Source: Candidatus Epulonipiscium sp. | GTDB lineage: Bacteria; Bacillota; Clostridia; Lachnospirales; Defluviitaleaceae | DNA length: 64,000 nucleotides | Direction of reading: 5' to 3' | Assembly (NCBI GenBank): GCA_012518815.1 | Contig: JAAYRK010000003.1 | Coordinates: forward strand, 1 to 64,000 | In this document: piece after piece, positions 43,975 through 61,376 of the stretch | Position numbering within the stretch: the first letter of the stretch is position 1 | How the letters are laid out: each line of letters begins with the position of its first letter | Position numbers and translations under genes: made by a program | The notes under the pieces: generated by a model | What the model was told of the DNA's origin: nothing | Database searches by the model: none | Seen by the model: only the letters and a program-made list of their open reading frames with translations

Positions 43975-44086
43975 TAATACCCTCTCCTTTGACTGAATAA
44001 TAAAGAATATCTGGTTACTAGCTTTTATTAGGTATTATAATATATTTATATGAAAAATTCCATGAAAAACGTCAAATTATAGAGCT

Positions 44087-45271
44087 TTATATCCTTTTTT
44101 CAGGATTAACAATATCTGTAATTCTAATACCAAAGTTTTCATCAATAACTACAACTTCACCTTTTGCAACAAATTTGCCATTAACTAAAACATCAACGGG
44201 TTCTCCTGCTAATTTATCTAGCTCGATAACTGTTCCAGGGCTAAACTCTAATATATCTCTTATTAATTTATGAGTTCTTCCCAATTCAACAGTAACTTCT
44301 AAAGGAACATCTTTAATGATTTCAATATTTTCTCTTGTCTGTATAACTGCACTTTGATCAAAAGTTTGGAATTGTGCAGACTGTACATTAATATGGGGCT
44401 GACTTATGGTTGATGGCTGTGTTGCAGTAGGACTTTCATAATAAGTCTGATTCACTTGAATATGCTCTTGCTTTGGAGGTTCAGTTATTACTTGTTGAGT
44501 TGGTTGAGGTGCTTGTGGCGGTGTTTCAACAACTTTTGTTGGTTCAGGTTCAGCCTCAGACAAGCTCTTTTGAGATTTAATTAAATTGGCAGCAAGTGTT
44601 TTTGCAAAATCTAAAGGAAGAATTTGCATTATTTCACTATCTATCAATTCCCCTATTTTCATTTTAAAACAAACTCTTACTATACCTTCATCTCCAAAGC
44701 CTACATTATCCATTACTTTTCCTTTATCAAGTTGAGGTATAAAAGCATGAGGTGGTTTAATATCAATTTTTTTATTGAATATTGATGACATAGATGTTGA
44801 AGCAGAACCAACCATTTGATTCATAGCCTCGCTAATAGCACTTAAATGGAGTTCAGTTAACTCTTCATCAGTATTTTGACCTGCTCCGCCCATCATTAAA
44901 TCAGCAATTATCTTAACATCATTTTCTTTTAATATTAAAAGATTAATTCCTTCTAAACCTTCTTTATATTCAACATTTATTGCAACCATTGATTCACCGT
45001 ATTCATTAGCTAGTTGCTCCCAACTCATAACCTTAACATCAGGAGTAGTAATAATAACTTTTTGGTTTAATAATGTGAATAATGTAGTTGCTGCAGTACC
45101 CATACTGATGTTACCAATTTCACCTAAGGCATCTTTTTCATCATCAGTAAGAGGATCATTTATAACTATATTTGAAGCATCTTCAGTAAAATTATCAATA
45201 CTAATGTCATCGTCAATATCTGTTCCGCCAAGTAAAGCATCAATTTCGGCTTGAGAAAGCATATCACCCAT
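44087..45271 (-). CDS. fliY: flagellar motor switch phosphatase FliY (FliN-like)
   Basis: C-ring protein with CheY-P phosphatase activity. The 394 residues start with a FliM-like CheY-binding peptide (MLSQAEIDALLGG), followed by a CheC-like domain with two E-x2-N sites (LGEIGNISMGTAATTL and ISEAMNQMVGSASTSM). A long Pro/Gln/Thr-rich linker (about 245-300) leads to a C-terminal FliN domain (VTVELGRTHKLIRDILEFSPGTVIEL region, GEPVDVLVNGKFVAKGEVVV). The ATG at 45271 has GGGAGG upstream and lies next to the fliM stop. Confidence 0.97.
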   Translation of the reverse strand: MGDMLSQAEIDALLGGTDIDDDISIDNFTEDASNIVINDPLTDDEKDALGEIGNISMGTAATTLFTLLNQKVIITTPDVKVMSWEQLANEYGESMVAINVEYKEGLEGINLLILKENDVKIIADLMMGGAGQNTDEELTELHLSAISEAMNQMVGSASTSMSSIFNKKIDIKPPHAFIPQLDKGKVMDNVGFGDEGIVRVCFKMKIGELIDSEIMQILPLDFAKTLAANLIKSQKSLSEAEPEPTKVVETPPQAPQPTQQVITEPPKQEHIQVNQTYYESPTATQPSTISQPHINVQSAQFQTFDQSAVIQTRENIEIIKDVPLEVTVELGRTHKLIRDILEFSPGTVIELDKLAGEPVDVLVNGKFVAKGEVVVIDENFGIRITDIVNPEKRI

Positions 45272-46258
45272 TTAAATATCCTCCCTTCTTTCTATTGAAG
45301 TAATCTGTACTGCATTTTGCTTTCTATGGATTCCGGGTTTTCCATAAAATTTTAAAAGATTACCCGCTAAAACCTCTAAATCCGAATTAATGTATGAGTC
45401 CAATTTTATAACATCTCCAACTTGCAGGTCAACAAATTCTTCAACAGTTATATGGGTTCTTCCCAAAACAGTAACTACTGGAATTTTAGCTACTTCTAAT
45501 CTTTTTTCTAAAAACTTTTTATAGGCAGATTTATCTTCTTGTTCTACTACTGCAAACCAATATTTAGTATTTAATCTATCCATAATTGGTTCAATTACTA
45601 AGTGTGGAATACAAATATTTATCATGCCTTCGACTTCTCCTAGCTTTATATTTAAGGTAACTAAAGCAATCATTTCATTAGGAGAAATTATTTGTGCAAA
45701 CTGAGAATTGGTTTCAATTTTTTCCAATCTTGGGTTAAGATCGATTACATTTTCCCAAGGTTCTTTTAGTAAACCTATTAATTGTGTAACTATTCTTTCT
45801 AAAAGTATTCTTTCGATTTCAGTGAATTCCCTAATTTTATCAATCATTGAACCTCTTCCGCCTAAAATTCTGTCTATTATTGAATAGCCTAAATTAGGAG
45901 AAAGATCTAATACGATAGAGCCTTTTAAAGGAGCAAAATCTACAATTGATAAAATTACAGGATTAGATAAGGAATTGCTAAATTCATAGTAAGTAACAGC
46001 TTCCGCGTTAATTACATCAACTTGAGTAGCAGTTCGTAAATAGCCAGACAAATATGTAGATATTATTCTTGAATAATTGTCAAAAATAATTTCTAATGTC
46101 CTTAATTGCTCTTTTGCAAATTTTGAAGGTCTAGCAAAATCGTAGTTTTTTATATGTTTTTGTTGACTTGGTTCTTGAATATCTTTAAGATCAATTTCGC
46201 CAGTATTCAATGCTTTTAACAGCTCATCTATTTCATTTTGTGATAATACTTCGCCCAC
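45272..46258 (-). CDS. fliM: flagellar motor switch protein FliM
   Basis: C-ring component that binds CheY-P. The 328 residues have the N-terminal CheY-binding segment VLSQNEIDELLKALNTGEI. The middle CheC-like fold includes RTLEIIFDNYSRIISTYLSGYLRT and ILGGRGSMIDKIREFTEIE. The C-terminal FliN-like domain carries VTVLGRTHITVEEFVDLQVGDVIKL segments. The start is GTG at 46258 with GGGAGG. The fliL-fliM-fliY order is standard. Confidence 0.97.
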   Translation of the reverse strand: MGEVLSQNEIDELLKALNTGEIDLKDIQEPSQQKHIKNYDFARPSKFAKEQLRTLEIIFDNYSRIISTYLSGYLRTATQVDVINAEAVTYYEFSNSLSNPVILSIVDFAPLKGSIVLDLSPNLGYSIIDRILGGRGSMIDKIREFTEIERILLERIVTQLIGLLKEPWENVIDLNPRLEKIETNSQFAQIISPNEMIALVTLNIKLGEVEGMINICIPHLVIEPIMDRLNTKYWFAVVEQEDKSAYKKFLEKRLEVAKIPVVTVLGRTHITVEEFVDLQVGDVIKLDSYINSDLEVLAGNLLKFYGKPGIHRKQNAVQITSIERREDI

Positions 46259-46299
46259 TTAACCACCTCCCGCTACTATGATGAAATTAAAAGTTATCA

Positions 46300-46803
46300 C
46301 TATTGAACAAAAAACTCTCCAAAATAAATATCAGTAATTGTTTTTGTCTGAAAGTATTTATTTAATTCATTTAGTATTTCTTGGCCCATTAACTCTTGTG
46401 CATTAGGTTGTATTACTTCATCATAATTTTTGTTTCTAATTACATTTATAATAATATGTCTAAGTACAGGCATTTTTTCAGTTAACTGCTCATTTATTTT
46501 TTTATAATCTTTTTGACTTTTATCTAAAGCCAATCCTACAGATATGCGAAGAACATACTTATCTTCATCTTTATTATTTTGCATAAGATTGGCAGTTATT
46601 GGCTCATCAATGGAAAGAATTGCTATATCTTCAGAGTTAACTACTATTTTATTATTTTCCCCGTTTAAATTTCCATTCTCATTATTCGTATTATTCATGT
46701 CTTTAAGGGAAGTAAGTGTGAAAAATAGTGTAACAGTTACTGCTATTAAAGCAGTAAATAATATTCCTATGGCTACAAAAATAAATACTTTACTTTTTTC
46801 CAT
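46300..46803 (-). CDS. fliL: flagellar basal body-associated protein FliL
   Basis: Single-pass membrane protein that supports the stator around the motor. The 167 residues have an N-terminal helix (VFIFVAIGILFTALIAVTV, about 6-24), a short Asn-rich linker and a periplasmic-side domain with VLRISVGLALDKSQKDYKKINEQL and LRHIIINVIRNKNYDEV. The C-terminus TKTITDIYFGEFFVQ matches the family. The ATG at 46803 has GGGGGAT upstream. It follows motB by 23 bases. Confidence 0.95.
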   Translation of the reverse strand: MEKSKVFIFVAIGILFTALIAVTVTLFFTLTSLKDMNNTNNENGNLNGENNKIVVNSEDIAILSIDEPITANLMQNNKDEDKYVLRISVGLALDKSQKDYKKINEQLTEKMPVLRHIIINVIRNKNYDEVIQPNAQELMGQEILNELNKYFQTKTITDIYFGEFFVQ

Positions 46804-46826
46804 TATAATCCCCCTTATTGAATCAA

Positions 46827-47603
46827 TTAATTATTGATTCCTACATTTGTTGCATATTCACTAAGTATTTTAATTTCTACTCTTCTATTTTTTGCCCTTC
46901 CCTCAGCTGTGGAATTATCAGCAATGGGGACATATTCACCAAATCCTTCGGTTGAAAATTGGCTAGGAGTAAAATTTAATTCATTAATATAATATTTTGC
47001 CACTGCTATAGCTCTTGCAGCAGATAGTTCCCAGTTACTAGGAAATTGTGGTGTATTTATAGGTCTGTTATCTGTATGACCTTCAAAGCGGATTCTATTA
47101 TTGGGGTATTTTGCAAGTTGTATCCCTATCTTATCTAATATGCTAATTGCTTCAGGTTTTAAATCAGCTTTACCGCTGTCAAATAATATACCATCTTTAA
47201 ATGTTATGGTAACAAAATGATCTCCCAAATCTACATCAATTGCATCATCTAGTTCGTTTTCACTAACAAACGAACTAATTTCAGAATACATTTTTTTAAG
47301 TTCTTCTATACTTCTTAAATCAATCTCAGCAGTAGTTTCAGCAATATATTTTTCTAAATCGGGCAATTGACTTATTCCATTACCTATTTCACTACCATCT
47401 CCTAATGTAGAGCCACCACCTGGTAAAATACCAATTGAACCCTCCATTGAATTTACAAATGCCCTAAATTTAGAAATATCTACCGTTGACATAGCAAAAA
47501 GAAGAACAAAAAAAGTAAGTAGTAAAGTTACCATATCTCCATATGTAGTCATCCATTCTGGTGCACCTTGGCTTGCTTCTTCTGACTTTCTTCTTCTTGC
47601 CAT
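46827..47603 (-). CDS. motB: flagellar motor stator protein MotB
   Basis: Peptidoglycan-anchored stator subunit. It has 258 residues from the ATG at 47603. A basic N-terminus is followed by one membrane helix with the proton/sodium-binding Asp in TTYGDMVTLLLTFFVLLFAMS-like context (Asp about residue 25). A plug/linker region and the OmpA-type domain (FDSGKADLKPEAISIL, IRFEGHTDNRPI, NWELSAARAIAVAKYYI, NRRVEIKIL) complete it. The GTG three codons upstream lies inside the ribosome site and overlaps the motA stop. MotA and MotB sit inside the fla/che operon, as in many clostridia. Confidence 0.96.
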   Translation of the reverse strand: MARRRKSEEASQGAPEWMTTYGDMVTLLLTFFVLLFAMSTVDISKFRAFVNSMEGSIGILPGGGSTLGDGSEIGNGISQLPDLEKYIAETTAEIDLRSIEELKKMYSEISSFVSENELDDAIDVDLGDHFVTITFKDGILFDSGKADLKPEAISILDKIGIQLAKYPNNRIRFEGHTDNRPINTPQFPSNWELSAARAIAVAKYYINELNFTPSQFSTEGFGEYVPIADNSTAEGRAKNRRVEIKILSEYATNVGINN

Positions 47604-47604
47604 T

Positions 47605-48396
47605 TTATTCACCTACCTCTATACTATCATCATTTCTATTCATAGTTTCACGTAGAGTTGGTGATAAGAATGCTTTTAGTTTTTCCTCGATTATTCTTGG
47701 ATTTTCTCCTGCTTGAATAGATAGAAGTCCTTCAATCATTACTTCTTTTAAGAGTATTTCTTCATCACTTCTTACCTTTAATTTGGTTGCTGTAGGAGAT
47801 GCAAAAAAGTTGGCTAAAACTGAACCATAGAATGTTGTAACCAATGCAACAGCCATTGCAGGTCCAATAGTTGAAGGGTCATTTAACTGGTCTAACATGG
47901 CAATAAGACCAATTAAGGTTCCAATCATACCCCAGGCAGGACCTAAACTAGCTATATTGCCCCAAAAACCTTGAACTTCGCTATGTCTGCCTTCTATAAA
48001 TGCTAATTCTGTTTCTAATATATTTCTAACCAATTCAGGGTCTGTACCATCAACAATCAATAAAACTCCTTTTTGTAAAAACTTATCATCCATATCTTGA
48101 GCAGCTTCTTCAAGGGCTAGTAACCCTTCTTTTCTTGCAATATTAGCCAATTCAATTATTTTTTGAATTATATTTCCTGTATTCATTTCTTTAGTTTGAA
48201 AAATTAAACGGATAGTTTTTAGTGAATTCATAAATTTATTCATAGGATAAGCAACTAGCATAGATGCTAAGGTTCCACCAAAAGTAATCATAACTGAAGG
48301 TATATCAATAAATAAACCTAATCGCCCATTCATTGCTATAGAAACAATCATAAAAACAAAACCTAATATTAGTCCAAGAACGGTTGAAATGTCCAA
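47605..48396 (-). CDS. motA: flagellar motor stator protein MotA
   Basis: Stator channel subunit. About 263 residues from a TTG at 48396, preferred because GAGGTGA lies 5 bases upstream; a GTG at 48405 overlaps that site. Four membrane segments are visible, with the cytoplasmic loop holding AQDMDDKFLQKGVLLIVDG and the conserved FWGNIASLGPAWGMIGTLIGLIAML followed by LVTTFYGSVLANFF. The conserved charged loop residues cannot be assigned without alignment. It follows flbD, whose stop overlaps this ribosome site. Confidence 0.95.
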   Translation of the reverse strand: MDISTVLGLILGFVFMIVSIAMNGRLGLFIDIPSVMITFGGTLASMLVAYPMNKFMNSLKTIRLIFQTKEMNTGNIIQKIIELANIARKEGLLALEEAAQDMDDKFLQKGVLLIVDGTDPELVRNILETELAFIEGRHSEVQGFWGNIASLGPAWGMIGTLIGLIAMLDQLNDPSTIGPAMAVALVTTFYGSVLANFFASPTATKLKVRSDEEILLKEVMIEGLLSIQAGENPRIIEEKLKAFLSPTLRETMNRNDDSIEVGE

Positions 48397-48401
48397 TAAA
48401 C

Positions 48402-48605
48402 TCACCTCACTTTATTGCTAATATCTCCAAGTATTTTTTGTTTGTATTCAATGACATAATTGATTATTTCTTCTATAGTTTCTTTTACAACAATTTTTCT
48501 ACCTGTAGTCATTGTGATAACTGTATCAGGAGTCTCTTCGATAAATTCAATTAAATCTGAGTTAATAACAATATAACTATCATTTAATCTTGTTACTTTT
48601 ATCAT
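48402..48605 (-). CDS. flbD: FlbD/SwrD family flagellar protein
   Basis: A 67-residue protein from the ATG at 48605 (AGAGGG 6 bases upstream; earlier in-frame ATGs lie in or before this site). The family pattern MIKVTRLNDSYIVINSDLIEFIEETPDTVITMTTGRKIVVKET is present, readable as IKVTRLND, INSDLIEFIEETPDT and TTGRKIVVKE. Bacillus SwrD (YlzI) raises flagellar torque and is needed for swarming. Its position between flgE and motA suits a role in stator function. Confidence 0.92.
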   Translation of the reverse strand: MIKVTRLNDSYIVINSDLIEFIEETPDTVITMTTGRKIVVKETIEEIINYVIEYKQKILGDISNKVR

Positions 48606-48634
48606 ATACATCCCTCTTTTGGACATCAAATTAC

Positions 48635-48670
48635 CTCGCACCTTAAGACAAAAGTGTCTTAAAGTGCGAG
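48635..48670 (-). repeat. 16-bp hairpin between flgE and flbD-motAB
   Basis: A perfectly paired 16-bp stem (48635-48650 with 48655-48670, one G-U pair, core CTCGCAC...GTGCGAG) has a 4-base loop. It starts 8 bases after the flgE stop and ends about 30 bases before flbD. There is no U-run on the minus strand (GUAAUUUGAUG follows), so it is unlike an intrinsic terminator. It may set different mRNA stability for the hook and motor parts of the operon. Confidence 0.75.
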
Positions 48671-48678
48671 AAAGCTAA

Positions 48679-50022
48679 TTAACGTTTTAAATTAACTAAC
48701 TCTTGAAGCATTTCATCAGATGTGGTAATTATTCTTGAATTCGCTTGGAAACCTCTTTGGGTTGTAATCATTTCTGTAAATTCTTTAGCGAGGTCCACAT
48801 TAGACATTTCTAACACTCCACCTTGGAGATTAGGTTCATTTCCAATACCATCAAATTCACCAGAGTTAGGAGTAGTAGTAAACAAGTTGTCTCCTACTTT
48901 TTGAAGTCCAGCTGGATTTCTGAAAGTAGCAATTACCACTTGACCTAGCATTTTTTGCTGGCCATTACTGTATTGAGCAATAATAATTCCATCTGCACCA
49001 ATACTATATCCAGACAATTCACCTGGTTCACGGCCTGCTCCTAGACCATTAGAATCGCCCATTAAAGGGTCAATATTGGTTTTTTGGTTGTACTGTGTTA
49101 ATCCAGTAAAATCTACAGTAAGAGGACCTATTGTAGATTTGATTAAAGGATCTCCAGCACTTAAGTCTGCTGTTAAATCAAAAGGATTTCCTCCATTGGA
49201 AATTGTAAATGTACCATTGGTACCACCAGAATTTTCAATATCTAGATTCCCATCGCTATCAAATACAATAGTAATAGAATCCTCTTCTGCTCCTACATTT
49301 TCTAATGTATAAACATTCCCGTTAGTATCTGTTAATCTTAAAGTATCGGGAATATCCAAATTCCATTCAGAAGCAGTAGAATCATATGTCATATTAAGAT
49401 TTGCACTATATAGATTACCTAAGCTATCATAAAATTTTAATTGGATTGGAATTCCAGTAGTTGTAATACCATCTTGAATATTTATATTTCCTTGTATTCT
49501 AAGATTAGTTGTAGCTTCAGGGTCCGCAGTTAGATTTTCAGGTTTGTCTAATTTTAAATCTTCAACAGCACCTCTTTGAATTCTGGTTCCATTATCAACG
49601 GCAGGCCATCCTTTTACCTTCATCCCATTAGGAATAGTTAAATTTCCATCATCATCTTTTCTAAATACTCCAGCTCTTGTAAAGTAAGTTCCACTTTCGT
49701 CACCAACGATAAAAAATCCTTCACCTTCAATCATTAAATCGAAAGGATTGTCTGTTCTTTGAGCAGCTCCTATTGTCATTAATGTATCAATTGAAGAAAT
49801 GTTTGTACCTAAACCAATTTGCATTGGGTTTCGTCCACCTCTACCAGTTTCCTGGCTAGCACCACTTCCCCCTTGAAGAGTTTGGCTAAATACTTCATTA
49901 AAAGTTACACGGCTTGACTTAAAAGCTGTTGTGTTTACGTTAGCAATGTTATTACCTATAACATCCATTTTAGTCTGATGTACTCTTAAGCCAGAAATGC
50001 CTGAAAACATTGATCTCATCAT
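48679..50022 (-). CDS. flgE: flagellar hook protein FlgE
   Basis: Hook subunit of 447 residues from the ATG at 50022 (GGAGG 9 bases upstream; the next codon is also ATG). The N-terminal rod/hook motif MFSGISGLRVHQTKMDVIGNNIANVNTTAFKSSRVTF is present in full. Hook beta-domain sequences follow, and the C-terminal part has GVLEMSNVDLAKEFTEMITTQRGFQANSRIITTSDEML. The beta-domain is larger than in the rod proteins FlgB/FlgC, which supports hook over rod. It lies after the flagellar operon protein gene and before a strong hairpin. Confidence 0.95.
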   Translation of the reverse strand: MMRSMFSGISGLRVHQTKMDVIGNNIANVNTTAFKSSRVTFNEVFSQTLQGGSGASQETGRGGRNPMQIGLGTNISSIDTLMTIGAAQRTDNPFDLMIEGEGFFIVGDESGTYFTRAGVFRKDDDGNLTIPNGMKVKGWPAVDNGTRIQRGAVEDLKLDKPENLTADPEATTNLRIQGNINIQDGITTTGIPIQLKFYDSLGNLYSANLNMTYDSTASEWNLDIPDTLRLTDTNGNVYTLENVGAEEDSITIVFDSDGNLDIENSGGTNGTFTISNGGNPFDLTADLSAGDPLIKSTIGPLTVDFTGLTQYNQKTNIDPLMGDSNGLGAGREPGELSGYSIGADGIIIAQYSNGQQKMLGQVVIATFRNPAGLQKVGDNLFTTTPNSGEFDGIGNEPNLQGGVLEMSNVDLAKEFTEMITTQRGFQANSRIITTSDEMLQELVNLKR

Positions 50023-50119
50023 AATAAATGACCTCCTTACAATGTGGATAATTTGGTGCGGTAATTTAATCATCTTTTCTGTCATTCCAAGATGAAAAGC
50101 TTCCTACAAGAGGTCCAGC

Positions 50120-50506
50120 TTAAATAATTACAGCACCGTCAATATTAGTAAAAACTGCATCTTTTGTTTGGTTAGAATCCATTGCTGTAACAACAATACG
50201 GTTCTTAACATTAACTACTAAAGCAATTTGATCCATTAAAACTAAAGAATCCTTTATTCCTTTTTCTTTTGCTTTATCAATTGCTTTTTCTAGTTTATCA
50301 GATTGTTCTTTAGTAATAACAATATTTCGTGCATCTAATCTCATAGCAGCATGTTTGGAAAATTTAATATTGTTGTTAGAAGAAATCTTATCTTGCAAAA
50401 CTTGTTGGAATTCATTTGTATATACATTGTTATTTTGATTTTGAATTTTATTGTTTTTTGGAGTATTAATTGGGGTAATTTTAACGGGATTATGATTTAT
50501 TCTCAT
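50120..50506 (-). CDS. flagellar operon protein (TIGR02530 family)
   Basis: A 128-residue protein from the ATG at 50506, with AGGTGG upstream. The C-terminal 80 residues carry the family pattern: KFSKHAAMRLDARNI, then KLEKAIDKAKEKGIKDSLVLMDQIALVVNVKNRIVVTAMD in successive blocks. An N-terminal Asn/Lys/Gln-rich region is variable. Such proteins are found between flgD and flgE in many Firmicutes and have no established function. The gaps to flgD (16 bases) and flgE (97 bases) are consistent with cotranscription. Confidence 0.9.
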   Translation of the reverse strand: MRINHNPVKITPINTPKNNKIQNQNNNVYTNEFQQVLQDKISSNNNIKFSKHAAMRLDARNIVITKEQSDKLEKAIDKAKEKGIKDSLVLMDQIALVVNVKNRIVVTAMDSNQTKDAVFTNIDGAVII

Positions 50507-50522
50507 AAAATCACCACCTTTA

Positions 50523-51332
50523 TTAGCCTTCATATACTTTTGTAATATCTTCGTAGGCTAATTCTTTACCATTAACTACTACATACATATCTTTGTCCCG
50601 CATTAAAATATAATCAACTTTTCCATTGACTTCCTCAAATTCACTTGTTTCAGGATTAAAGTATTTACCCAATACTCTCTTTCCAGTAATAGATTCCTTT
50701 TCTACTACACCTGTTAGATTGTCCATTATTGTCTCAATATAGAAGTCATCTGAACCTACTACAAGGTAAGGAATGCCATTTTTCATGTTAATATGTCTTA
50801 CTAAACCCTCTATGTATTCCAATTTGTTATCAGTAGGATTATTTCTAGTAAATTGAATAACCTTTCCAATCAGCTCAAACGGACTGCTTGGTTGGTCATC
50901 TATTCCTAATATACTAGCATCTGTTACTAGGGTAACATCTTCAACTGCAATTTCCCTATTTCCTACTAGTAAATAAGCTTTATTATTTGTAATTTTCACA
51001 AAGTCAACTTTTCCTTGGACAATTTCAACATCAGATGTCTGCTTATTAACAATAGTAGCTTGAATTTCTTTTCCTATTAAGGAAAAAGCTTTTGTATTTT
51101 CTAAGGTTTTGTTCATGTTTTGCATTTGTTCCAATGAGCTAAATTGAGCCATTTGAGCTAAAAATTCCTTATCATCCGTGGGATTAAGTGGATCTTGGTG
51201 TCTTAATTGGGTTACCAAAAGATTTAAGAAAGCATCTTTATCTAATGTGTTTTTTGGAGCAGTATCCTCTTTGCGATACTTAATTCTTGAGTCATCGGGA
51301 CTAATATAATTAACTTTTTGAACATCTGCCAT
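50523..51332 (-). CDS. flgD: flagellar hook cap protein FlgD with three C-terminal repeats
   Basis: Scaffold for hook polymerisation. The N-terminal domain (about 25-75) has the family signature LDKDAFLNLLVTQLRHQDPLNP and FLAQMAQFSSLEQM. After that come three similar modules of about 55 residues: 83-135, 152-205 and 213-269. Each has a G-K near its start, a Gly-Lys/Leu-Val turn in the middle and a Y-L/V-V-V strand before an acidic end. Bacillus FlgD has only one such module. The ATG at 51332 has GGAGG upstream. It lies between fliK and the flagellar operon protein. Confidence 0.95.
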   Translation of the reverse strand: MADVQKVNYISPDDSRIKYRKEDTAPKNTLDKDAFLNLLVTQLRHQDPLNPTDDKEFLAQMAQFSSLEQMQNMNKTLENTKAFSLIGKEIQATIVNKQTSDVEIVQGKVDFVKITNNKAYLLVGNREIAVEDVTLVTDASILGIDDQPSSPFELIGKVIQFTRNNPTDNKLEYIEGLVRHINMKNGIPYLVVGSDDFYIETIMDNLTGVVEKESITGKRVLGKYFNPETSEFEEVNGKVDYILMRDKDMYVVVNGKELAYEDITKVYEG

Positions 51333-51360
51333 TTTTTCACCTCCAAACTATTTGGAATAG

Positions 51361-52734
51361 CTATGCAGAAAAATCAATTTGACTTTCTGAACGTTTGTAA
51401 GGATTATTAACTTCGTCTAAATAAATTTCATCAGGATTGCTTACAAAATCTGAAATAATGTTACTGATTCTTTTATTAGACTTTGAAGATTTTTCCTTCA
51501 TTAGATGTGAATGTTGATTTTGAAACTCTTGTTTCACAAACACTTCAAGATTTTCAACTTTTAATCCTTGCTCTTGAAGGGCATCTCTTAATTGATTAAA
51601 ATTGGATTCAATTATTTCTTTTACAGCCTGATTTTCAGCTATAAATTGAGCAGTTACAATTCCTCTTTCAGTAACAATTTTTAAATCCAATTTCCCTAAA
51701 TGGTCTGGCTTAAGCTGTAAGTTGATTTCTGATGTATTATCACTAACGTTTAATTTAATATGTTCTACCATTTGTTCCATAATATCTTGTGGACTTATTA
51801 GATTGTTAACTTGTCTTCCTAATAAAGTATCTGTTAAACTATCTGTTTTTTGCAATTGGGATTCTAAGCTTTGTTGAATTACTATGTTTTTATTGTCTAA
51901 AATAATCTCTTTCGGATTATTTAAATTATCAGCTTTTAGGAATCCTTCATCAGCTTTTAATTCTTTTTTCGTATTGCTATTATCATTCTTTTCAAATTCA
52001 AAGCTAAATTTTTCTTCATTTAAGCCAGTGTTATGGTTTTCAACTAGAGACTCTTCAGCATTGATAATATTATTATCATTGGCTTTTTCAACAGCTTCAT
52101 GATTTTCAAGTTGGCTGCTATTATTAGATGTAGTTTTGGGATTCAATTCTTCCGTATCATTATTGTCAAAAAGATTTACTTGTTCTTCTAGTGCATTGAA
52201 TAAATTGTCTTCAAGTATAGGATAAGTGGCTTTTAATTCATCCATTACACTAATAATGTCTTTATACAAGTCATTAATGTTTGGAATAGATAATAAATCA
52301 ATGGAACTTGATACATCTACTAGCTTTTGAAGAAAAATATTAATATTAGTCTGTAATAGTAAGTCATAAGCTGTAAGACCTGCTTCATCTAAGGCTTCAA
52401 TTATTTCTTCTTCACTAAAACCTGTTTTTTCTACTAGATTTTTAATGATTTGTTTTTCATCAGGCATTTCTTTATTATTTATTTGCCCATCCTTAGTATT
52501 GGTTTGTCGTGTGGTATTTAATTTCTTATTATGATAATCTGCTTCTTGAGAACTGTTTATATTGTTTTTATTATTGTCGTCAATAGAAGCCTTTGAAATT
52601 AAATTATCCTTGCTGTCACAACTATTGTTTAATAACTTATCAAAGCTATCGTTATTAGTATTCTTAGCAGTAACATTGGAGTAAGATTTAACTGACTCAG
52701 CTGCAAAATCAAATGACAGCATTTGAACGTTCAT
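51361..52734 (-). CDS. fliK: flagellar hook-length control protein FliK
   Basis: Secreted ruler that sets hook length and triggers the export switch. The 457 residues have a long low-complexity N-terminal and middle region rich in N, D, K, S and E. The C-terminal hook-length domain (about 330-420) reads NLQLKPDHLGKLDLKIVTERG and QLRDALQEQGLKVENLEVFV in part. One patch, FSEEEIIEALDEAGLTAYDLL (about 100-120), looks like a small helical domain. The ATG at 52734 has a GGAGGGGG site. Identification is by the C-terminal domain and location. Confidence 0.93.
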   Translation of the reverse strand: MNVQMLSFDFAAESVKSYSNVTAKNTNNDSFDKLLNNSCDSKDNLISKASIDDNNKNNINSSQEADYHNKKLNTTRQTNTKDGQINNKEMPDEKQIIKNLVEKTGFSEEEIIEALDEAGLTAYDLLLQTNINIFLQKLVDVSSSIDLLSIPNINDLYKDIISVMDELKATYPILEDNLFNALEEQVNLFDNNDTEELNPKTTSNNSSQLENHEAVEKANDNNIINAEESLVENHNTGLNEEKFSFEFEKNDNSNTKKELKADEGFLKADNLNNPKEIILDNKNIVIQQSLESQLQKTDSLTDTLLGRQVNNLISPQDIMEQMVEHIKLNVSDNTSEINLQLKPDHLGKLDLKIVTERGIVTAQFIAENQAVKEIIESNFNQLRDALQEQGLKVENLEVFVKQEFQNQHSHLMKEKSSKSNKRISNIISDFVSNPDEIYLDEVNNPYKRSESQIDFSA

Positions 52735-52755
52735 ATCCCCCCTCCTTTCATGTTT

Positions 52756-53508
52756 TTATTGTGGTGCTAAGCTTTTAACTAATCTGGCTGCACGTTCAGG
52801 ATTCATTTCTTCAATAATTGCAGCCTGTTGTTCACTATCTATATTATTAAATATTAGAACAACCAAATCCATATCAGTAACCAGCATTTCCTCTACGACT
52901 TTTGCAGCACTTGCTGGATCCATTGTTTGAAAAGGTTCAGCATATCTTTTTATTTCTTGTGTTCTAAATTCTTCAATAATTAATTCTTTATATATTTCAG
53001 TAGCTGTTTCAGGATAAAAAGTCTTGAAAAACTCTATAAAGGCCTTTGGATCTTCCTGTGCTACCATTTTACTAAATTCGTTTTTTTCAATCTTAAACTG
53101 TATCTGCTGTTCTTCAATTTCTCTAAGCCTTTTTATTTCTGCTTCAAGTCTTTCAAATGTATTTTGATAAGAAAGGAGCTGCTCATCCTTGGATTCCAAT
53201 TGATTTTTAAGAGTGTTTAATTCCTTTAATAATTTTTCTTTTGAATAGTTGGAATATTTGTCTATCTCTTTGTCTAATGGAGGAAGTATATTATTTACAA
53301 TAGGAATATTTTCTAATAAAGATCGCAAATATTTTTCTGTTAGATTTCCTACATTAAAACGTATAATAGCAGCTAATCCAATTAATATGATTATAACGAC
53401 TATAATTACAGTAAGCTTAGAACTTTTCTTTTTGCCTTCAAATGAAGGAGTATTTTCATCCTTGCTTGTTGGGGTTGAGGTAGTAACTTTACTGGCTATT
53501 TGTCTCAC
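52756..53508 (-). CDS. MotE-like membrane protein with MgtE-N-type domain
   Basis: A 250-residue protein (YlxF position in Bacillus). It has a membrane helix (LTVIIVVIIILIGLAAII, about 32-50), a coiled coil (about 85-140) and a C-terminal MgtE-N-like helical domain with AEPFQTMDPASAAKVVEEML and EEMNPERAARLVKSL. Such proteins act as stator or basal body chaperones in some bacteria. The start is unusual: the only standard in-frame codon is the GTG at 53508, directly against its AGGA site, whereas an ATA at 53499 has ideal spacing from AGGAG. It overlaps the end of fliJ by about 10-20 bases. Confidence 0.85.
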   Translation of the reverse strand: MRQIASKVTTSTPTSKDENTPSFEGKKKSSKLTVIIVVIIILIGLAAIIRFNVGNLTEKYLRSLLENIPIVNNILPPLDKEIDKYSNYSKEKLLKELNTLKNQLESKDEQLLSYQNTFERLEAEIKRLREIEEQQIQFKIEKNEFSKMVAQEDPKAFIEFFKTFYPETATEIYKELIIEEFRTQEIKRYAEPFQTMDPASAAKVVEEMLVTDMDLVVLIFNNIDSEQQAAIIEEMNPERAARLVKSLAPQ

Positions 53509-53959
53509 TCCTATCTATAAGACGGTTCTGAGATTTAAAACTTACGATTTCATCAATTATTTTTTGTTCCTTTTTATTTTCTTCATCTAAAAAATTAATC
53601 CACTCTTTTTCCTTTAATTTTTCAAGCATTTTCTTTTGTTTTGAAGCTTCTATTAATTCTTGACGTTTTTCTTCTGCTCTTTTTTTGGCAAGGATTATAT
53701 TATCTTCTTGCTCTGCAATTCTTACTTTTAAATAATTAGCGTAATTATTATAAAAGATTATTTCTCTAGGAGAAATTGAGTCAAGCATTTTTGTTCTTAA
53801 TAAACTAAATAAAGAAATAGATTCATTAACCAACTTTTCTTTTAGTTCAACTTCTCTTTGAAGCTTATTAAGTGCATCTGAATACTCTTGCTTCTTTTTA
53901 TCTTCAAATTTCTCTCTGATATTTAATACACTTTCCAAGCGAAATTGAAAGCGGCTCAT
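53489..53959 (-). CDS. fliJ: flagellar export protein FliJ
   Basis: Coiled-coil chaperone-escort of the export ATPase. The 156 residues are almost entirely helical and charged, starting FQFRLESVLNIREKFEDKKKQEYSDAL as in the family, with long heptad-like K/E-rich stretches. The ATG at 53959 has AAAGGAG upstream. It lies 21 bases after fliI. Identification is from the N-terminal motif, length and the fliH-fliI-fliJ order. Confidence 0.93.
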   Translation of the reverse strand: MSRFQFRLESVLNIREKFEDKKKQEYSDALNKLQREVELKEKLVNESISLFSLLRTKMLDSISPREIIFYNNYANYLKVRIAEQEDNIILAKKRAEEKRQELIEASKQKKMLEKLKEKEWINFLDEENKKEQKIIDEIVSFKSQNRLIDRSETNSQ

Positions 53960-53980
53960 AAAAATCTCCTTTTAGATTGC

Positions 53981-55309
53981 TTATTCCCCATAAAGAATAT
54001 TATTCATTTGTTCTAAAACTTCATTTATATTAAAGTTTTCTTCAACTCTTTGCATTAGAAAATCATTAATTCCTTTAATTTTTGACATTGCCTCATCTAT
54101 TTCTTCATTACTGCCTTTCACATAAGCACCTATATTAATTAAATCTTCTGCATCTCTATATACTGCAATTAATTTTTTTATTTCATATGCCATTTCCTTA
54201 TGTTTACTATCTACAATATCATTCATTACCCTTGATACACTTTGAAGAACATCTATAGCTGGATAATGATTTCTATTAGCGATTTTTCTGGATAAGACTA
54301 TATGTCCATCCAATATTCCTCTAGCAGTATCTGTTACAGGTTCTGTTAAATCATCACCATCAACTAAAACTGTATACAAGCCAGTAATTGAGCCTTTATC
54401 AGAATTACCTGCTCTTTCTAAGAGCTTAGGCATAACTGCAAAAACTGAAGGAGTATATCCTCTTGATACAGGAGGTTCTCCTATGGCTAATCCCACTTCT
54501 CGTTGAGCCATTGCAAATCGTGTTAAAGAATCCATAAGAAGTAATACATCTTTTCCTTCATCACGAAAATATTCAGCAATTGCTGTCGCAGTTTGAGCGG
54601 CTTTTAAACGAATTAATGCAGGTTGGTCAGAAGTTGCTACAACAAGAACAGAACGTTTAAGTCCTTCTTCTTTTAAGTCTTTTTCAATAAATTCTCTTAC
54701 TTCTCTTCCTCTTTCTCCTATTAATGCGATAACATTTAAATCTGCTTTAGTATTTCTAGCAATCATTCCTAGTAGTGTGCTTTTTCCTACGCCACTTCCA
54801 GAAAAAATACCTAACCTTTGTCCTTTTCCTACAGTTAAAAGACCATCAATTGCCTTAACACCCAAAGGTAATATTTCATTAATTCGTTTTCGCTTTAAAG
54901 GATTAGGAGGTTGATTTTGTATAGTATATTTAATGTCTGAATTTGACAATTCTTTCCCATCCATAGCTTGTCCTAAGCCATTTAAAACTCTTCCAAGTAA
55001 ATGATAACCAATGGCAACATTTAAGCTTGATTTAGAAGTTTCAATAATACTGCCAGGACCTATTCCAGACATTTCTCCTAATGGCATTAATAAGATTCTG
55101 TTATTTCTAAAACCTACAACTTCTGCCATTATGGCATCTGTTTCATTTTGCGAATGAATAAAGCAGAGGTCACCAACATTACAAACAGGCCCTATAGATT
55201 CAATAGTTAAACCTACAACTTGCGATACTCTTCCCTGATATTTAAAATAATCTTTATCTAGTACAGTTTTATATTTGTCAATGTTGATTGTACTCAAGCC
55301 CTCACCCAT
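53981..55309 (-). CDS. fliI: flagellum-specific ATPase FliI
   Basis: Export ATPase, related to F1 beta/T3SS ATPases. The 442 residues include Walker A GIFSGSGVGKSTLLGMI, GERGREVREFIE, DVLLLMDSLTRFAMAQREVGLAIGEPP (Walker B region) and PVTDTARGILDGHIVLSR. The start ATG at 55309 has only a weak AAAG site; a TTG four codons later is possible. It lies 9 bases after fliH. Confidence 0.97.
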   Translation of the reverse strand: MGEGLSTINIDKYKTVLDKDYFKYQGRVSQVVGLTIESIGPVCNVGDLCFIHSQNETDAIMAEVVGFRNNRILLMPLGEMSGIGPGSIIETSKSSLNVAIGYHLLGRVLNGLGQAMDGKELSNSDIKYTIQNQPPNPLKRKRINEILPLGVKAIDGLLTVGKGQRLGIFSGSGVGKSTLLGMIARNTKADLNVIALIGERGREVREFIEKDLKEEGLKRSVLVVATSDQPALIRLKAAQTATAIAEYFRDEGKDVLLLMDSLTRFAMAQREVGLAIGEPPVSRGYTPSVFAVMPKLLERAGNSDKGSITGLYTVLVDGDDLTEPVTDTARGILDGHIVLSRKIANRNHYPAIDVLQSVSRVMNDIVDSKHKEMAYEIKKLIAVYRDAEDLINIGAYVKGSNEEIDEAMSKIKGINDFLMQRVEENFNINEVLEQMNNILYGE

Positions 55310-55318
55310 TCTTTAAAA

Positions 55319-56056
55319 TCAATAATCCATAATAGAAAGTAACTCTTCTTTTAAGCCCTCAAATTGGACTCCTAAACTACAGTCAATATTTCCAAAATCA
55401 GTTTCAATGATACAATCTGAAAAAGATAAGGATGAATCTTTTATAATTTCGATGTTATTATCAATTCCCAAATCTTCCAAAATCTCATCTTTTGATTCTA
55501 TGACATAAGGATAATCCTTTTCGGAAACTCGAATTGTAACTTTGTCGCTTCCTTCATTTATTTGAGAGAAGCCTTTTTTAATTAGATAGGAAATATGCTT
55601 AGTATTCGTTTTTATAGTATTACCTAATAATTTTTCTAAAATATCAATAATCAACTGAACCATTTGAGGTTCTATTTCATTGATTATTTTTTCCTTTTCT
55701 AATAGTGCTTTTTCTAATTCCTTTTTAGCTTTACTTAGAATTATGTCGCCTTCCTCGACTCCTTTTCGCAATCCTTCTTCATAACCTTTTTTATATGCTT
55801 CTTCCTTGACTTCAATTATTAATGCTTCTGCATCTTTATTAGCCTTATCTAATATCCTAGCCGCTGCTTTTTCTGCTTCATGGATCATTCTATCAGCATC
55901 TTGTCTTGCTTTTTCTAAAATATTCTGAGTCATAATTTCAGCCGAAGTATCATCAATTGTAATTATTTCTTCCTTTGGAAATTCTTCATTTGTTTTTATC
56001 TCTATAGTGTTTTCGTGATTAAAATTTACAGCAGGACTTTTTATGACATTAGACAA
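55319..56056 (-). CDS. fliH: flagellar assembly protein FliH
   Basis: Regulator and stator-like partner of FliI. The 245 residues have an Ala/Glu-rich helical stretch with GxxxG-like spacing (KKGYEEGLRKGVEEGDII, about 90-107) and a C-terminal vacuolar-ATPase-E-like domain. The start is a TTG at 56056, overlapping the fliG stop region, with GGAGGTG about 10 bases upstream; I see no other good start. Identification rests on composition and the fliG-fliH-fliI order. Confidence 0.92.
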   Translation of the reverse strand: MSNVIKSPAVNFNHENTIEIKTNEEFPKEEIITIDDTSAEIMTQNILEKARQDADRMIHEAEKAAARILDKANKDAEALIIEVKEEAYKKGYEEGLRKGVEEGDIILSKAKKELEKALLEKEKIINEIEPQMVQLIIDILEKLLGNTIKTNTKHISYLIKKGFSQINEGSDKVTIRVSEKDYPYVIESKDEILEDLGIDNNIEIIKDSSLSFSDCIIETDFGNIDCSLGVQFEGLKEELLSIMDY

Positions 56057-57062
56057 TTATTTCGTCACCTCCACCTCTGGAAATAACAATTTCGCCAACT
56101 TCTTCAAGCTTTCTTATGACATTAACAATTTTTTGTTGAGCGTCTTCGACATCTCTTAATCGTACAGGACCCATGTATTCCATATCTTCCTGTATCATAG
56201 CGGAAAGTCGTTTAGAAAGGTTTGCGAAAACAACATTTTTGACTTCATCGCCGGAACCTTTTAATGCAATTGCTAAATCGTTATTATCAACTTCTCTAAG
56301 AATTCTTTGAATTGACCTGCTATCTAAGGTAATAATATCTTCAAATACAAACATTTTCTTCTTAATTTCTTCAGCTAATTCAGTATCTTCTACTTCTAAA
56401 GTTTCCATAATATATTTTTCTGTTCCTCTATCAACAGAGTTAATGATATCAACAATTGCATCTACACCACCGACAGCAGTAAAGTCTTCAGTTACTAAGG
56501 CAGACAATTTTTTCTCAAGCACTCTTTCAACTTCTTTAATGATGTCTGGCGATGTCCTATCCATTAAAGCTATCCTTCTTGCAACATCTGGTTGTTTATC
56601 CTGTGGTAAAGATGCTAATACCGTAGCAGCCTGATTTGGTTTTAAATAAGATAAAATTAATGCTATTGCTTGAGGATGCTCATTTTGAATAAAGTTTAAT
56701 AATTGAGAAGCATCTGTTTTTCTTACAAATTCGAAAGGTCTAACTTGAAGAGAAACAGTAAGTTTATTAATAACTTCTATCGCTTTTTCACTACCTAAAG
56801 CCTTTTCAAGAATTTGTTTAGCGTAAGATATACCTCCTTCAGCAATATATTGCTGTGCTAAACATACTTGATAGAATTCATCTAAAACTTTTTCTTTCAT
56901 TTGTGGGGAAACAGTACGAATATTTGCTATTTCTAAAGTTAATTGCTCGATTTCTTCTTCTCTTAAATGTTTAAATATCCGAGCTGATTTTTCAGGTCCT
57001 AATGCAATAAGAAGCATAGCTGCTTTTTCTCTACCTGAATACTCCTCCTTCAAACTTGCCAT
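56049..57062 (-). CDS. fliG: flagellar motor switch protein FliG
   Basis: C-ring rotor protein that contacts the stator. The 337 residues include REKAAMLLIALGPEKSARIFKHL, the EHPQ motif in NEHPQAIALILSYLKP (about 131-134), and the C-terminal torque helix region LRDVEDAQQKIVNVIRKLEEVGEIVI. The ATG at 57062 has GGGAGTG upstream. It lies 6 bases after fliF. Confidence 0.97.
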   Translation of the reverse strand: MASLKEEYSGREKAAMLLIALGPEKSARIFKHLREEEIEQLTLEIANIRTVSPQMKEKVLDEFYQVCLAQQYIAEGGISYAKQILEKALGSEKAIEVINKLTVSLQVRPFEFVRKTDASQLLNFIQNEHPQAIALILSYLKPNQAATVLASLPQDKQPDVARRIALMDRTSPDIIKEVERVLEKKLSALVTEDFTAVGGVDAIVDIINSVDRGTEKYIMETLEVEDTELAEEIKKKMFVFEDIITLDSRSIQRILREVDNNDLAIALKGSGDEVKNVVFANLSKRLSAMIQEDMEYMGPVRLRDVEDAQQKIVNVIRKLEEVGEIVISRGGGDEIIV

Positions 57063-57068
57063 CTATAT

Positions 57069-58709
57069 TCACTCCCATTCTTCGCTTAACCAATTGCGTA
57101 GAAGACTTGCTACTGCTTCAGGTTTTTCGTCGACAAATTTATCAATTTGCTTTTTGATTTCAGATTCTTCATTATACTCAATCGAATCAAGTTCTTCAGG
57201 AATAATTTGAGAACTTTCGAGCATTTCTTCTACAGATAATTCAGGTTCAATTTCTGTGATTTCCATCGGTTCTGCTTTTCTTATTAGTGCATATGCTAAT
57301 AATGCTATGAGTACAAATAGAATTCCTAGCAAAATGTATTCATTGTAAGATCTTGGAATAATTTCCTTGTCGATAAAAACAGGAACTTCATATCCAAGAA
57401 TTTCTACATTACTTACATTTAAACCTGATGCATTAGCTACCAAATTATGGAGCTGCGGATATTCATTATCAATATTAATAATTGAAGGAGTTGATTTAAT
57501 ACGATACTTAAACTCTTCCCAGCTTTCTCCTTCCCGCAAAGCATTTACATCATTTGAACCACGGGTATTTTCTAATTGTTCCTGATTATAAATTTTATCT
57601 CTTAATACTACCACAGATATATTAGATTCATCTGTTATAACTGAGCCGATACTCTTTTCAAGTTCTGTATATTTTTTATCTAATTCATACTTAATTTCAC
57701 TTTGATTTTCTTTAGCTTCGTATCTATTTTCATCACCCATTACATATTCTGGGGTACCAAGATCATTAGCAGCTAAACCTGGTTCGTCTCCTGTAGCCCC
57801 ACCACTTGCTTTTCTTGTAGAAATATTTTCATAAGAAACAAGTCCTTTTTTATCTCCTTCTATAGGAGAACTAACAACTTCTTGTTTTTCTCTATATTGA
57901 TCAAAGTTTAATACTAGATTTGGTGTCACCCTAACATCATCAAATAAGGGGCCTAGTATTGAAATAACTTTTCTTTCAATTTCTCTTTCAGCAGTAAGCT
58001 TTCTTTCCTGTTGTTCATCCATGTTAACACCAGGTGTATCATAATCATCAAAAAATAAAACATTACCCTTGTTATCAATAATTCTTACATTTTTTACATC
58101 TAAATTTTTAACACTACCAGCTACGTAATGGGCAATCCCCATAATTTGCTTTTTTGTTAATTGATTTTTTAAATTTAGTTTTACACTAGCTCTAGCTTCT
58201 TGATTAGCAGTTAAGAAAAAATTGTCATCACTTGGAATAACCAAGTGAACATCTGCTGATTCAACACCTTCAATTGTTGAAATCTCCATAGCTAATTTTT
58301 GTTGTTCAGCTTCTTTTAATTTTGCTTTTTTCTCCGTTTCAGTAGTTCCCATACTATTATCTAAGGCATCCTCAAAGGTAAAGCCGCTATCAGGAACTTG
58401 TTCCATTGCCAATTCCATTTTTGCTTTGGCGTAATCTTCCTTTTTTACCTCTATGGATGTACCCTGTTCGTTAGTCTGATTATATATATTTGCAGCATCT
58501 AACACTTCTTTAATTTCTGCAGTTTGGGAATGAGTTAACTCTTCATTAAATAATCTCACCATTTTAGGTCTAGTTGTAATAAAAATAGCAACTCCTAAAG
58601 AAAGAACTATAAATAATGCTATAAGTCCTAATCTTATCTTTTGTTCTTTATTAAATTTATTCCAGTATTCAGTAATTTGCTCTGATATTTTAGAAAGCGT
58701 TTCTTGCAT
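57069..58709 (-). CDS. fliF: flagellar MS-ring protein FliF
   Basis: Forms the membrane MS ring on which the basal body is built. The 546 residues have a first membrane helix (IRLGLIALFIVLSLGVAIF, about 25-43), the secretin-like periplasmic-side domains with VESADVHLVIPSDDNFF and RVTPNLVLNFDQYREKQE, and a second membrane helix (YILLGILFVLIALLAYALI, about 450-468). The C-terminal FliG-binding peptide follows (VASLLRNWLSEEWE). The ATG at 58709 has GAGGTG. It lies 47 bases after fliE. Confidence 0.97.
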   Translation of the reverse strand: MQETLSKISEQITEYWNKFNKEQKIRLGLIALFIVLSLGVAIFITTRPKMVRLFNEELTHSQTAEIKEVLDAANIYNQTNEQGTSIEVKKEDYAKAKMELAMEQVPDSGFTFEDALDNSMGTTETEKKAKLKEAEQQKLAMEISTIEGVESADVHLVIPSDDNFFLTANQEARASVKLNLKNQLTKKQIMGIAHYVAGSVKNLDVKNVRIIDNKGNVLFFDDYDTPGVNMDEQQERKLTAEREIERKVISILGPLFDDVRVTPNLVLNFDQYREKQEVVSSPIEGDKKGLVSYENISTRKASGGATGDEPGLAANDLGTPEYVMGDENRYEAKENQSEIKYELDKKYTELEKSIGSVITDESNISVVVLRDKIYNQEQLENTRGSNDVNALREGESWEEFKYRIKSTPSIINIDNEYPQLHNLVANASGLNVSNVEILGYEVPVFIDKEIIPRSYNEYILLGILFVLIALLAYALIRKAEPMEITEIEPELSVEEMLESSQIIPEELDSIEYNEESEIKKQIDKFVDEKPEAVASLLRNWLSEEWE

Positions 58710-58756
58710 TTGTTCACCTCATTTCTGTACAAAATTAGTATTATCAGCTTATAGGA

Positions 58757-59062
58757 TTATAAATTAATTCTCATAATTTCGTTGTAAGCTTCCAATACTT
58801 TATTTGTGATTTGTACAGTAAATTGAAGTGCAATATTTGCTTTTTCCTGTGCAATCATAACATTATGTATATTATCAGTTCTTCCAATAATAAAATCCAA
58901 ACTAATTTGTTCAGCTTCTTTTTGAAGAGAATTAGTTTGCTCAATTAATCCTATAGCAGCTTTATAAAAATCTTCAAAAGCTATGCTTTCTCTATTAACT
59001 TTTACATTACTATCATAATGACTATCTAAGGAATTAGTAAAATTCCTGCTTTCTATCTTCAT
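58757..59062 (-). CDS. fliE: flagellar hook-basal body protein FliE
   Basis: Rod-base adaptor linking the MS ring to the proximal rod. About 101 residues from the second ATG at 59062, six bases after GGGGG; the first ATG at 59068 abuts that site. The family pattern IHNVMIAQEKANIALQFTVQITNKVLEAYNEIMRI covers the C-terminal third and is complete. It lies 24 bases after flgC in the usual flgB-flgC-fliE order. Confidence 0.95.
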   Translation of the reverse strand: MKIESRNFTNSLDSHYDSNVKVNRESIAFEDFYKAAIGLIEQTNSLQKEAEQISLDFIIGRTDNIHNVMIAQEKANIALQFTVQITNKVLEAYNEIMRINL

Positions 59063-59086
59063 GTACATCCCCCTAAATTAGATAAA

Positions 59087-59527
59087 TTAACGACCTATTT
59101 CCAATGCTTTCAACGCCATACTTTTATTGGTATTTATTGCTGTAACATTAGCTTCATACGAGCGGTTTGCAGAAATCATATTAACCATCTCTTCAATTAT
59201 ATTTACATTTGGCATTCGGACATATCCGTTTTCATCTGCATCAGGATGCTCGGGGTCATAAACAGTTTGAAAATCACTATTGTCCTCTACAATAGCAGAA
59301 ACTCTTACCCCAGAACTATTGTGTTGCTCTATGCTGTTTTTTAAAACCGTGCTAAAAGGAACTTGTTCCTTTCTCTCTTCAAATAAAACAGTTTTCCTTC
59401 TATATGGCTCTCCGTTTTCAGTTCTAGTTGTATTGATATTAGCAATATTTTGAGAAATAATATCCATTCTTAATCTTTGAGCTGTTAAACCACTAGCACT
59501 TACATTCATTGATCTAAAAAACGACAT
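59087..59527 (-). CDS. flgC: flagellar basal body rod protein FlgC
   Basis: Proximal rod subunit. The 146 residues have the rod-family N-terminus FFRSMNVSASGLTAQRLRMDIISQNIANINTTRT and the C-terminal GYVRMPNVNIIEEMVNMISANRSYEANVTAINTNKSMALKALEIG, both complete when read. The ATG at 59527 has GGAGTGAG. It lies 11 bases after flgB. Confidence 0.97.
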   Translation of the reverse strand: MSFFRSMNVSASGLTAQRLRMDIISQNIANINTTRTENGEPYRRKTVLFEERKEQVPFSTVLKNSIEQHNSSGVRVSAIVEDNSDFQTVYDPEHPDADENGYVRMPNVNIIEEMVNMISANRSYEANVTAINTNKSMALKALEIGR

Positions 59528-59538
59528 AATCTCACTCC

Positions 59539-59910
59539 TTATCTAGTGTTGTTTAATACTATGTTGATCCGCTTAAATTCATGAGATACTTGGCTAATCA
59601 AGGTGTTATATCTAATGCTGTTTTTTACCATTTCAACCATTTCAACATCAATATCTACATTATTTTCATCGATTCGTGTTTGCAAATTATCATTTTTTAC
59701 TACAATTCTTGGTTTAACATTTTCCAACTTTTTCTTGTTTTTTGAGTTGACTGCATCTGCTAAAATTTTTTCAAATTCGACATCTTTTCTTTTATACTTT
59801 GGCGTATCTGCGTTAGCAATATTTCCGGAAATAATCTCATTTCTAAGCCACGAAGCATCAAGTGCCTTTTCAAAAATGTCAACGTTTGAATTTAACCGGT
59901 TAAACAGCAT
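59539..59910 (-). CDS. flgB: flagellar basal body rod protein FlgB
   Basis: Proximal rod subunit and first gene of the fla/che operon. It has 123 residues from the ATG at 59910, preceded by GGGAGGGG at good spacing; an in-frame start at 59925 lies upstream of that site. ALDASWLRNEIISGNIANADTPKYKRKDVEFE and the C-terminal VEMVKNSIRYNTLISQVSHEFKRI are family features. The leader from the promoter at 60030-60058 is about 110 bases long and AT-rich; I see no riboswitch in it. Confidence 0.96.
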   Translation of the reverse strand: MLFNRLNSNVDIFEKALDASWLRNEIISGNIANADTPKYKRKDVEFEKILADAVNSKNKKKLENVKPRIVVKNDNLQTRIDENNVDIDVEMVEMVKNSIRYNTLISQVSHEFKRINIVLNNTR

Positions 59911-60029
59911 TCTAACCCCTCCCATGACTTGTTAATCATACTATATACTAAAAAACCCAGGACTGTATTTTAATATATTAATTTTCAATCTTCTAAGCAT
60001 TTAAAAAATAAAATTCGACTTTTATTATC

Positions 60030-60058
60030 ATTATATACATTTAACAATAAAAGAGCAA
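60030..60058 (-). promoter_or_regulatory. sigma-A promoter for the flgB-fla/che operon
   Basis: TTGCTC (60053-60058) is followed after 17 bases by a perfect TATAAT (60030-60035) on the minus strand. It lies in the 346-base gap between flgB and codY. Outside this promoter and the codY terminator, that gap is only AT-rich sequence with no gene, tRNA or riboswitch I can support. Confidence 0.75.
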
Positions 60059-60230
60059 CATAATTATATTGAGAAATTTGTCCCATGTACTTATTTTTTT
60101 GTATAAATTTAATATATTTCATTATCTATTTAAATCAATAAAAGTAATATGTTTATAAAAAAATGTTTAAAATTGACACAACAACACATTTTATTAGCTT
60201 TATATTTAGATATCAATAGTAAAAAAATAT

Positions 60231-61218: not shown

Positions 61219-61283
61219 TATATTTAATAAATCTTACTGAAAGGTTTAGTAATTAAATTATTTACCGCAAATATATTATCATT

Positions 61284-61322: not shown

Positions 61323-61376
61323 TAAAAAAGTTTAGTAAGTTTATCGATTTACCCTAATTTGTTTTTATTTTACTTT

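Follow-up and report, generated by a model that had tools for sequence, protein, structure and literature searches.

A stable hairpin lacking a terminator tail follows the hook gene flgE at a clostridial flagellar locus and recurs at flgE ends in Bacillota

The described elements closest to the one reported here are the stabilizer stem-loops of selective RNA processing and stabilization (SRPS) in Clostridium/Ruminiclostridium cellulolyticum (PMC4423207, PMC8219983, PMC10311766) which, according to the available text of these papers, are likewise stable hairpins located within operons after highly expressed genes and followed by U-poor tails. In R. cellulolyticum, the stem-loops that close highly transcribed genes at the 3' end are correlated with the ratio between the transcripts of the genes on either side (PMC4423207). 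Of four stem-loops compared in a reporter, a U-poor one produced the highest upstream to downstream transcript ratio (PMC8219983), and most cuts in cip-cel lie downstream of stem-loops, with RNase Y hypothesized by the authors (PMC10311766). A flagellar operon (1018) is present among the predicted cases of PMC8219983, whose accessible text does not name the gene. The internal terminators of ABC importers in cellulolytic Clostridia, as presented in the available part of PMC9045158, are also recurrent hairpins after one kind of gene in an operon, have long stems and few U, and set the ratio to the downstream genes. They are described there as intrinsic, with U-rich tracts that are partly paired, whereas most flgE hairpin tails are not U-rich. 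Differential operon decay in E. coli relies, in the same manner, on RNA structures that shield an operon segment and set stoichiometry; from the accessible text of PMC5927463, these generally lie inside protein-coding regions, whereas the flgE hairpin is found in a gap, right past the stop codon.

The window, i.e. the whole stretch of 64,000 nucleotides of Candidatus Epulonipiscium sp. analyzed here, carries the flagellar genes of this locus on the minus strand; the coordinates of the original prediction are in plus-strand numbering. The hook protein gene flgE (48679..50085, minus strand), an ORF matching Pfam Flg_bbr_C, LlgE_F_G_D1, Flg_bb_rod and FlgE_D2, ends with a TAA stop codon at 48681-48679. 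The hairpin extends from 48670 to 48635 of the same strand and reads CTCGCACTTTAAGACA-CTTT-TGTCTTAAGGTGCGAG. Its 5' arm (48655..48670) begins 8 nt past the flgE stop and is followed by the CTTT loop (48654-48651) and by the 3' arm (48635..48650), which is backed by sequence, fold and covariation in relatives. Further along the minus strand are found an AU-rich stretch (48618..48634), which by analogy with the cip-cel cuts may be the place of an endonuclease cut, and an AGAGGG motif (48612..48617) located outside the hairpin and likely to be the ribosome-binding site of flbD. This small gene (48402..48605, 67 amino acids, PF06289, E 1.8e-27), which runs from an ATG at 48605 to a TGA, had previously been counted as part of the gap, so that motA had been mistaken for the neighbor of flgE. 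The flgE-flbD gap measures 73 nt and 29 nt separate the end of the 16-bp stem from the flbD start. The motA gene (47605..48405, minus strand, PF01618) begins with a GTG at 48405 that overlaps the flbD stop by 4 nt (GTGA), and motB (46827..47612, minus strand, PF13677 and PF00691) comes after it. The gene order of this same-strand flagellar run suggests a single operon.

All 16 base pairs of the stem form as RNA, one of them being G-U, and an outer 17th pair is U-G. Sequence and fold bear out the original prediction in that a 16-bp stem lies at the stated coordinates, 8 nt from flgE, and has no terminator tail. The fold of a 121-nt segment (48700-48580, minus strand) yielded -35.8 kcal/mol versus -18.7 (sd 3.2) for its shuffles (z -5.35, with 0 of 200 as good) and the hairpin alone -24.8 kcal/mol (z -3.8), confirming a real structure far beyond chance. 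It had been announced as the most stable hairpin between two genes of the operon, and it does rank at the top of the 69 mechanical ORF ends of the window, the next reaching -19.6 kcal/mol. Over the 275 co-directional gene ends in 414,309 bases of the genome, window included, it is the fifth strongest listed; the four stronger hairpins sit in gaps of 128-210 nt, and its own gap is given as 273 in this ranking, where the small flbD is uncalled. The 10 nt beyond the 17th pair contain 5 U with a longest run of 3 (tail TAATTTGATG). A consensus scan of 44000-62000 returned no terminator-like site at the hairpin, and in the window no Rfam match attained the gathering score of its family.

Two other hairpins of the window are worth mentioning. 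The second strongest at the ORF ends follows rpsO (S15, TIGR00952; 5200-5463, minus strand), after which comes pnp (2904-4958, minus strand), encoding PNPase, the enzyme such hairpins are expected to stop. A CheW-like gene (31611-32087, minus strand), whose match is below the model cut-off, is followed by a hairpin of -16.2 kcal/mol (z -3.8) without a U-run directly behind it, in the 89-nt gap preceding the next called ORF.

The comparison with other genomes was based on flgE loci from genome contigs (the best 80 of 109) and on flbD loci from genomes of the same order, class and phylum, in which matches were obtained in 57 of 76, 99 of 243 and 159 of 249, respectively. These genomes were chosen by their FlbD matches, and the 30 best loci per search were fetched together with 120 regions picked down the lists. 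The 290 records (L001-L289 and the window slice) allowed flgE to be assigned in 278, or 262 once identical 150-nt ends were removed. For flgE, as for eight further genes of these loci, each 3' end was represented by its most stable single hairpin in the 80 nt past the stop codon and compared with 60 dinucleotide shuffles; hairpins with a free energy of -15 kcal/mol or lower are referred to as strong.

Conservation, whose absence was one of the outcomes that were to refute the original prediction, is evident in these relatives: a strong hairpin follows flgE at 197 of the 262 distinct 3' ends (75%; median -21.7 kcal/mol), with z below -3 in 47%. The other genes of the same loci display one in 5-26% of cases, with z below -3 in at most 1%: fliK 5% of 82, flgD 9% of 150, flgX (TIGR02530) 26% of 148, flbD 7% of 230, motA 19% of 178, motB 5% of 125, fliL 12% of 156 and fliM 17% of 41. 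The excess is not merely a matter of room, because it persists within gaps of 50-300 nt, where 88% of 200 flgE ends carry a strong hairpin versus 0-28% for the other genes (flgD 9% of 89, flgX 28% of 43, flbD 3% of 65, motB 6% of 33, fliL 26% of 27, fliK 17% of 12 and motA 0 of 5). An energy-free count of stems of at least 11 pairs within 70 nt gave 55% for flgE, 3% for shuffled sequences and 1-5% for six other genes. Of the 180 loci with at least four ends, 127, hence not all, have their most stable hairpin behind flgE.

The 65 flgE ends devoid of a strong hairpin include 54 with a measured flbD gap, 26 of them below 50 nt and 28 with sufficient room; in gaps shorter than 50 nt, a strong hairpin follows flgE in 4% of 28. 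Universality beyond Bacillota had to be rejected: the 22 loci taken as non-Bacillota (including L060 and L081, without stated group) have a strong hairpin in 9 cases versus 188 of the other 240 (including L012, from Anaerolineaceae), and the flgE end of E. coli K-12, with a 19-nt gap and -5.8 kcal/mol, has no such hairpin. The long gap of the E. coli K-12 record (L306, 4559-4729) is that between flgF and flgG (171 nt) and not the flgE-flgF one. In L006 and L008, what appears to be another flgE-like gene lies between the matched flgE and flbD, and a strong hairpin is located behind the flbD-adjacent copy (-18.4 and -38.4 kcal/mol, respectively). Selenomonas and Centipeda loci (L039, L040, L053-L056, L058 and L059), of which two each belong to S. 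artemidis and strain F0473, contain flgE-like genes with flbD undetected in the locus; all eight show a hairpin of -21 kcal/mol or better past the stop, the tail of L056 being U-rich.

What persists at these ends is position and structure. The hairpin starts at a median of 8 nt past the flgE stop and within 20 nt in 168 of 197 cases, values bounded from above by the 80-nt search. In gaps of 150-500 nt, a strong hairpin is found in 45 of 47 cases and lies closer to flgE in 35 of these 45; it therefore belongs to flgE and not to flbD. The 197 hairpins fall into 173 similarity groups, 157 of which are singletons, and their sequences are thus mostly unrelated, so that position and structure persist rather than sequence. 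Covariation was assessed on an alignment of seven close relatives, G002 being left out as its hairpin is out of register. In these rows, 97.1% of the pair cells are paired and 10 cells in 4 pairs carry pair-preserving changes on both sides (0 of 500 shuffles as high for each of the two counts), and the covariation score is 0.305 versus 0.147 shuffled (0 of 500 as high). Nine of the 15 stem pairs never vary, and the shuffles are not surpassed in how many pairs show two-sided changes (4 versus 3.0, 148 of 500 as high) or in further pair types (7 versus 7.3, 386 of 500 as high). Seven related rows being few, the covariation counts as supporting evidence only.

The class of these hairpins was examined with several rules. 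The 8 nt behind the stem contain on average 2.20 U, versus 2.42 further on, which corresponds to the background level. A simple terminator rule is passed by 21 of the 197 strong flgE hairpins. Since U-tracts can pair into the stem, a lax rule permitting such pairing was also applied; it is passed by 39 of the 197 (42 of the 262 ends), versus a shuffled expectation of 6.0 for 262 ends, and does not flag the window hairpin. According to the rules of PMC8219983, where the stabilizer class has at most 5 U in the 10 nt downstream and a poly(U) of at most 3, the 197 are distributed into 173 stabilizers, 20 mixed cases and 4 terminators. The window hairpin falls into the stabilizer class, at its limit with 5 U and a run of 3, stability being judged by free energy. 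At -24.8 kcal/mol in its 73-nt gap it is an intergenic, presumably intra-operonic stem-loop, within the range of -6.6 to -31.8 kcal/mol published for SRPS elements in the accessible text, and it does not combine a G+C-rich stem with a U-rich tract as an intrinsic terminator does. Among the relatives, Acetivibrio straminisolvens has a hairpin of -20.5 kcal/mol with a U-poor tail and Fusibacter ferrireducens a terminator-like one of -22.7 kcal/mol (tail TTTTTATGAT). Depending on the rule, 4 to 39 of the 197 resemble terminators. Such a minority probably consists of internal terminators, and the window hairpin is most likely not one of them.

These counts bear directly on the possibility that the stem acts as a leaky internal terminator or attenuator, halting a fraction of the RNA polymerases so that fewer transcripts reach flbD and motA, in which case termination and not decay would set the stoichiometry. 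The excess of lax-rule hairpins over shuffled sequences speaks for it, as do the scarcity of U and the long stems reported for the ABC-importer terminators in the available part of PMC9045158 and the presence of Rho in the genome of the window. Nevertheless, 158 of the 197 fail even the lax rule, while 24 of 36 convergent gene ends of the same genome pass it, the U content of the tails is at background, and both the tail of the window hairpin and the consensus scan argue in the same direction; we regard this explanation as unlikely. An action on translation appears more doubtful still: the hairpin would insulate flbD from ribosomes ending flgE or mask a GAGG at the base of the stem that could serve as ribosome site for a start of flbD further upstream (ATG 48627), thereby lowering the synthesis of FlbD and of the coupled MotA. 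A GAGG is indeed present in the window at the foot of the 3' arm, 7 nt ahead of this in-frame ATG, but the match to the FlbD family (1-58 of 58-59 positions) places the start at the ATG at 48605, whose ribosome site is free. Moreover, among 179 strong hairpins, the distance from the end of the hairpin to the flbD start is at most 12 nt in only 10 and exceeds 60 nt in 55, and the hairpin is also present where flbD is undetected.

The hairpin is by construction an inverted repeat, and palindromes of such length can bind proteins. A DNA-level role, either as a protein-binding site or as a mobile palindrome, is nonetheless very improbable, as G-U pairs are kept in the genome of the window and in relatives, and one shared binding site is excluded because the 197 hairpins form 173 unrelated sequence groups. 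A dispersed repeat of the REP/MITE type was rejected, the 201-base region having one match in the genome. The fully complementary core palindrome of the relatives has no exact match there, which excludes perfect copies only; the G-U copy of the window itself fails this pattern.

The reading that we hold to be probable, with some reserve, is that of a stabilizer stem-loop of the SRPS kind within the operon, the message being cut downstream and its flgE side protected. Transcription would pass through the hairpin into flbD, since no U-tract is present, and a separate promoter has little room in the 29 nt left between the stem and the flbD start. The promoter candidate in the gap among the matches listed, on the minus strand at 48629-48601 (9/12), was discarded as it runs into the flbD start codon, and the 77 promoter matches of the scanned region show no excess over the 89.7 of shuffled sequences. 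An endonuclease, likely RNase Y, would then cleave the long mRNA in the AU-rich stretch beyond the hairpin, which would stop 3'-to-5' exonucleases such as PNPase. The upstream piece bearing flgE would consequently outlive the flbD-motA-motB-fliL piece, and each transcript of the operon would supply more hook message with no need for a second promoter. We infer read-through, cut and protection of the flgE side from the clostridial stem-loop precedents and from the Rho, RNase Y and PNPase encoded by this genome. With about 120 subunits per flagellum, the hook is needed in far more copies than the neighboring products.

Besides the flgE ends devoid of a strong hairpin, the hairpins that pass the lax terminator rule, the loci in which flgE is not the most stable end, the invariant pairs and the two covariation measures at shuffle level, and the case of E. 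coli K-12, two further points count against this stabilizer reading. Strong hairpins are not rare in the genome of the window, being found in 23 of the 110 co-directional gaps of at least 40 nt, with 12 failing the terminator rule. In addition, a 3' cap alone favors all genes upstream of flgE unless another cut precedes flgE, and no structural mark was found on the 5' side of flgE (z below -3 at 1% of 148 flgX ends). The protected 3' end put forward in the original prediction gains from the missing U-tail, the anchoring at the flgE stop, the pair-preserving changes and the recurrence. Its more specific purpose, that of producing less MotA/MotB than hook, is weakened because the hairpin is equally common where fliL follows flbD (84% of 57, versus 75% of 169 where motA does), and it is also found behind flgE at 10 of 11 loci of Bacillota without detected flbD.

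The SRPS stem-loops are backed by dRNA-seq or reporter evidence in the available text, whereas the flgE hairpin is predicted from sequence; the accessible parts of PMC6362236 and PMC10889297 hold no usable ratio of flgE to motA transcripts. Recurrence at one gene in many lineages with unrelated sequences, as seen for the flgE hairpin, is not described for SRPS in the accessible text, and no title or abstract among the matches listed in the literature describes a hairpin after flgE in Bacillota, which is no proof of novelty. The recurrence behind the hook gene is the result that should be retained. We tentatively suggest, with slightly more doubt than confidence, that Bacillota sharing this gene order maintain a mostly non-terminating hairpin anchored at the hook-gene stop codon and rebuild it time and again from unrelated sequence, that it sets hook dose or the fate of the hook mRNA across the lineage, with selection acting on structure and position alone, and that internal terminators replace it in a minority of lineages. 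As the hairpin keeps its position and stability while its sequence changes, many natural variants are available in order to test stem strength against the ratio of neighboring messages. If the proposal is true, one hairpin position would help explain how more hook subunit than motor or export parts is obtained from a single long flagellar transcript, and would offer a simple rule for deducing the stoichiometry of an operon from its sequence in bacteria for which RNA data are lacking.
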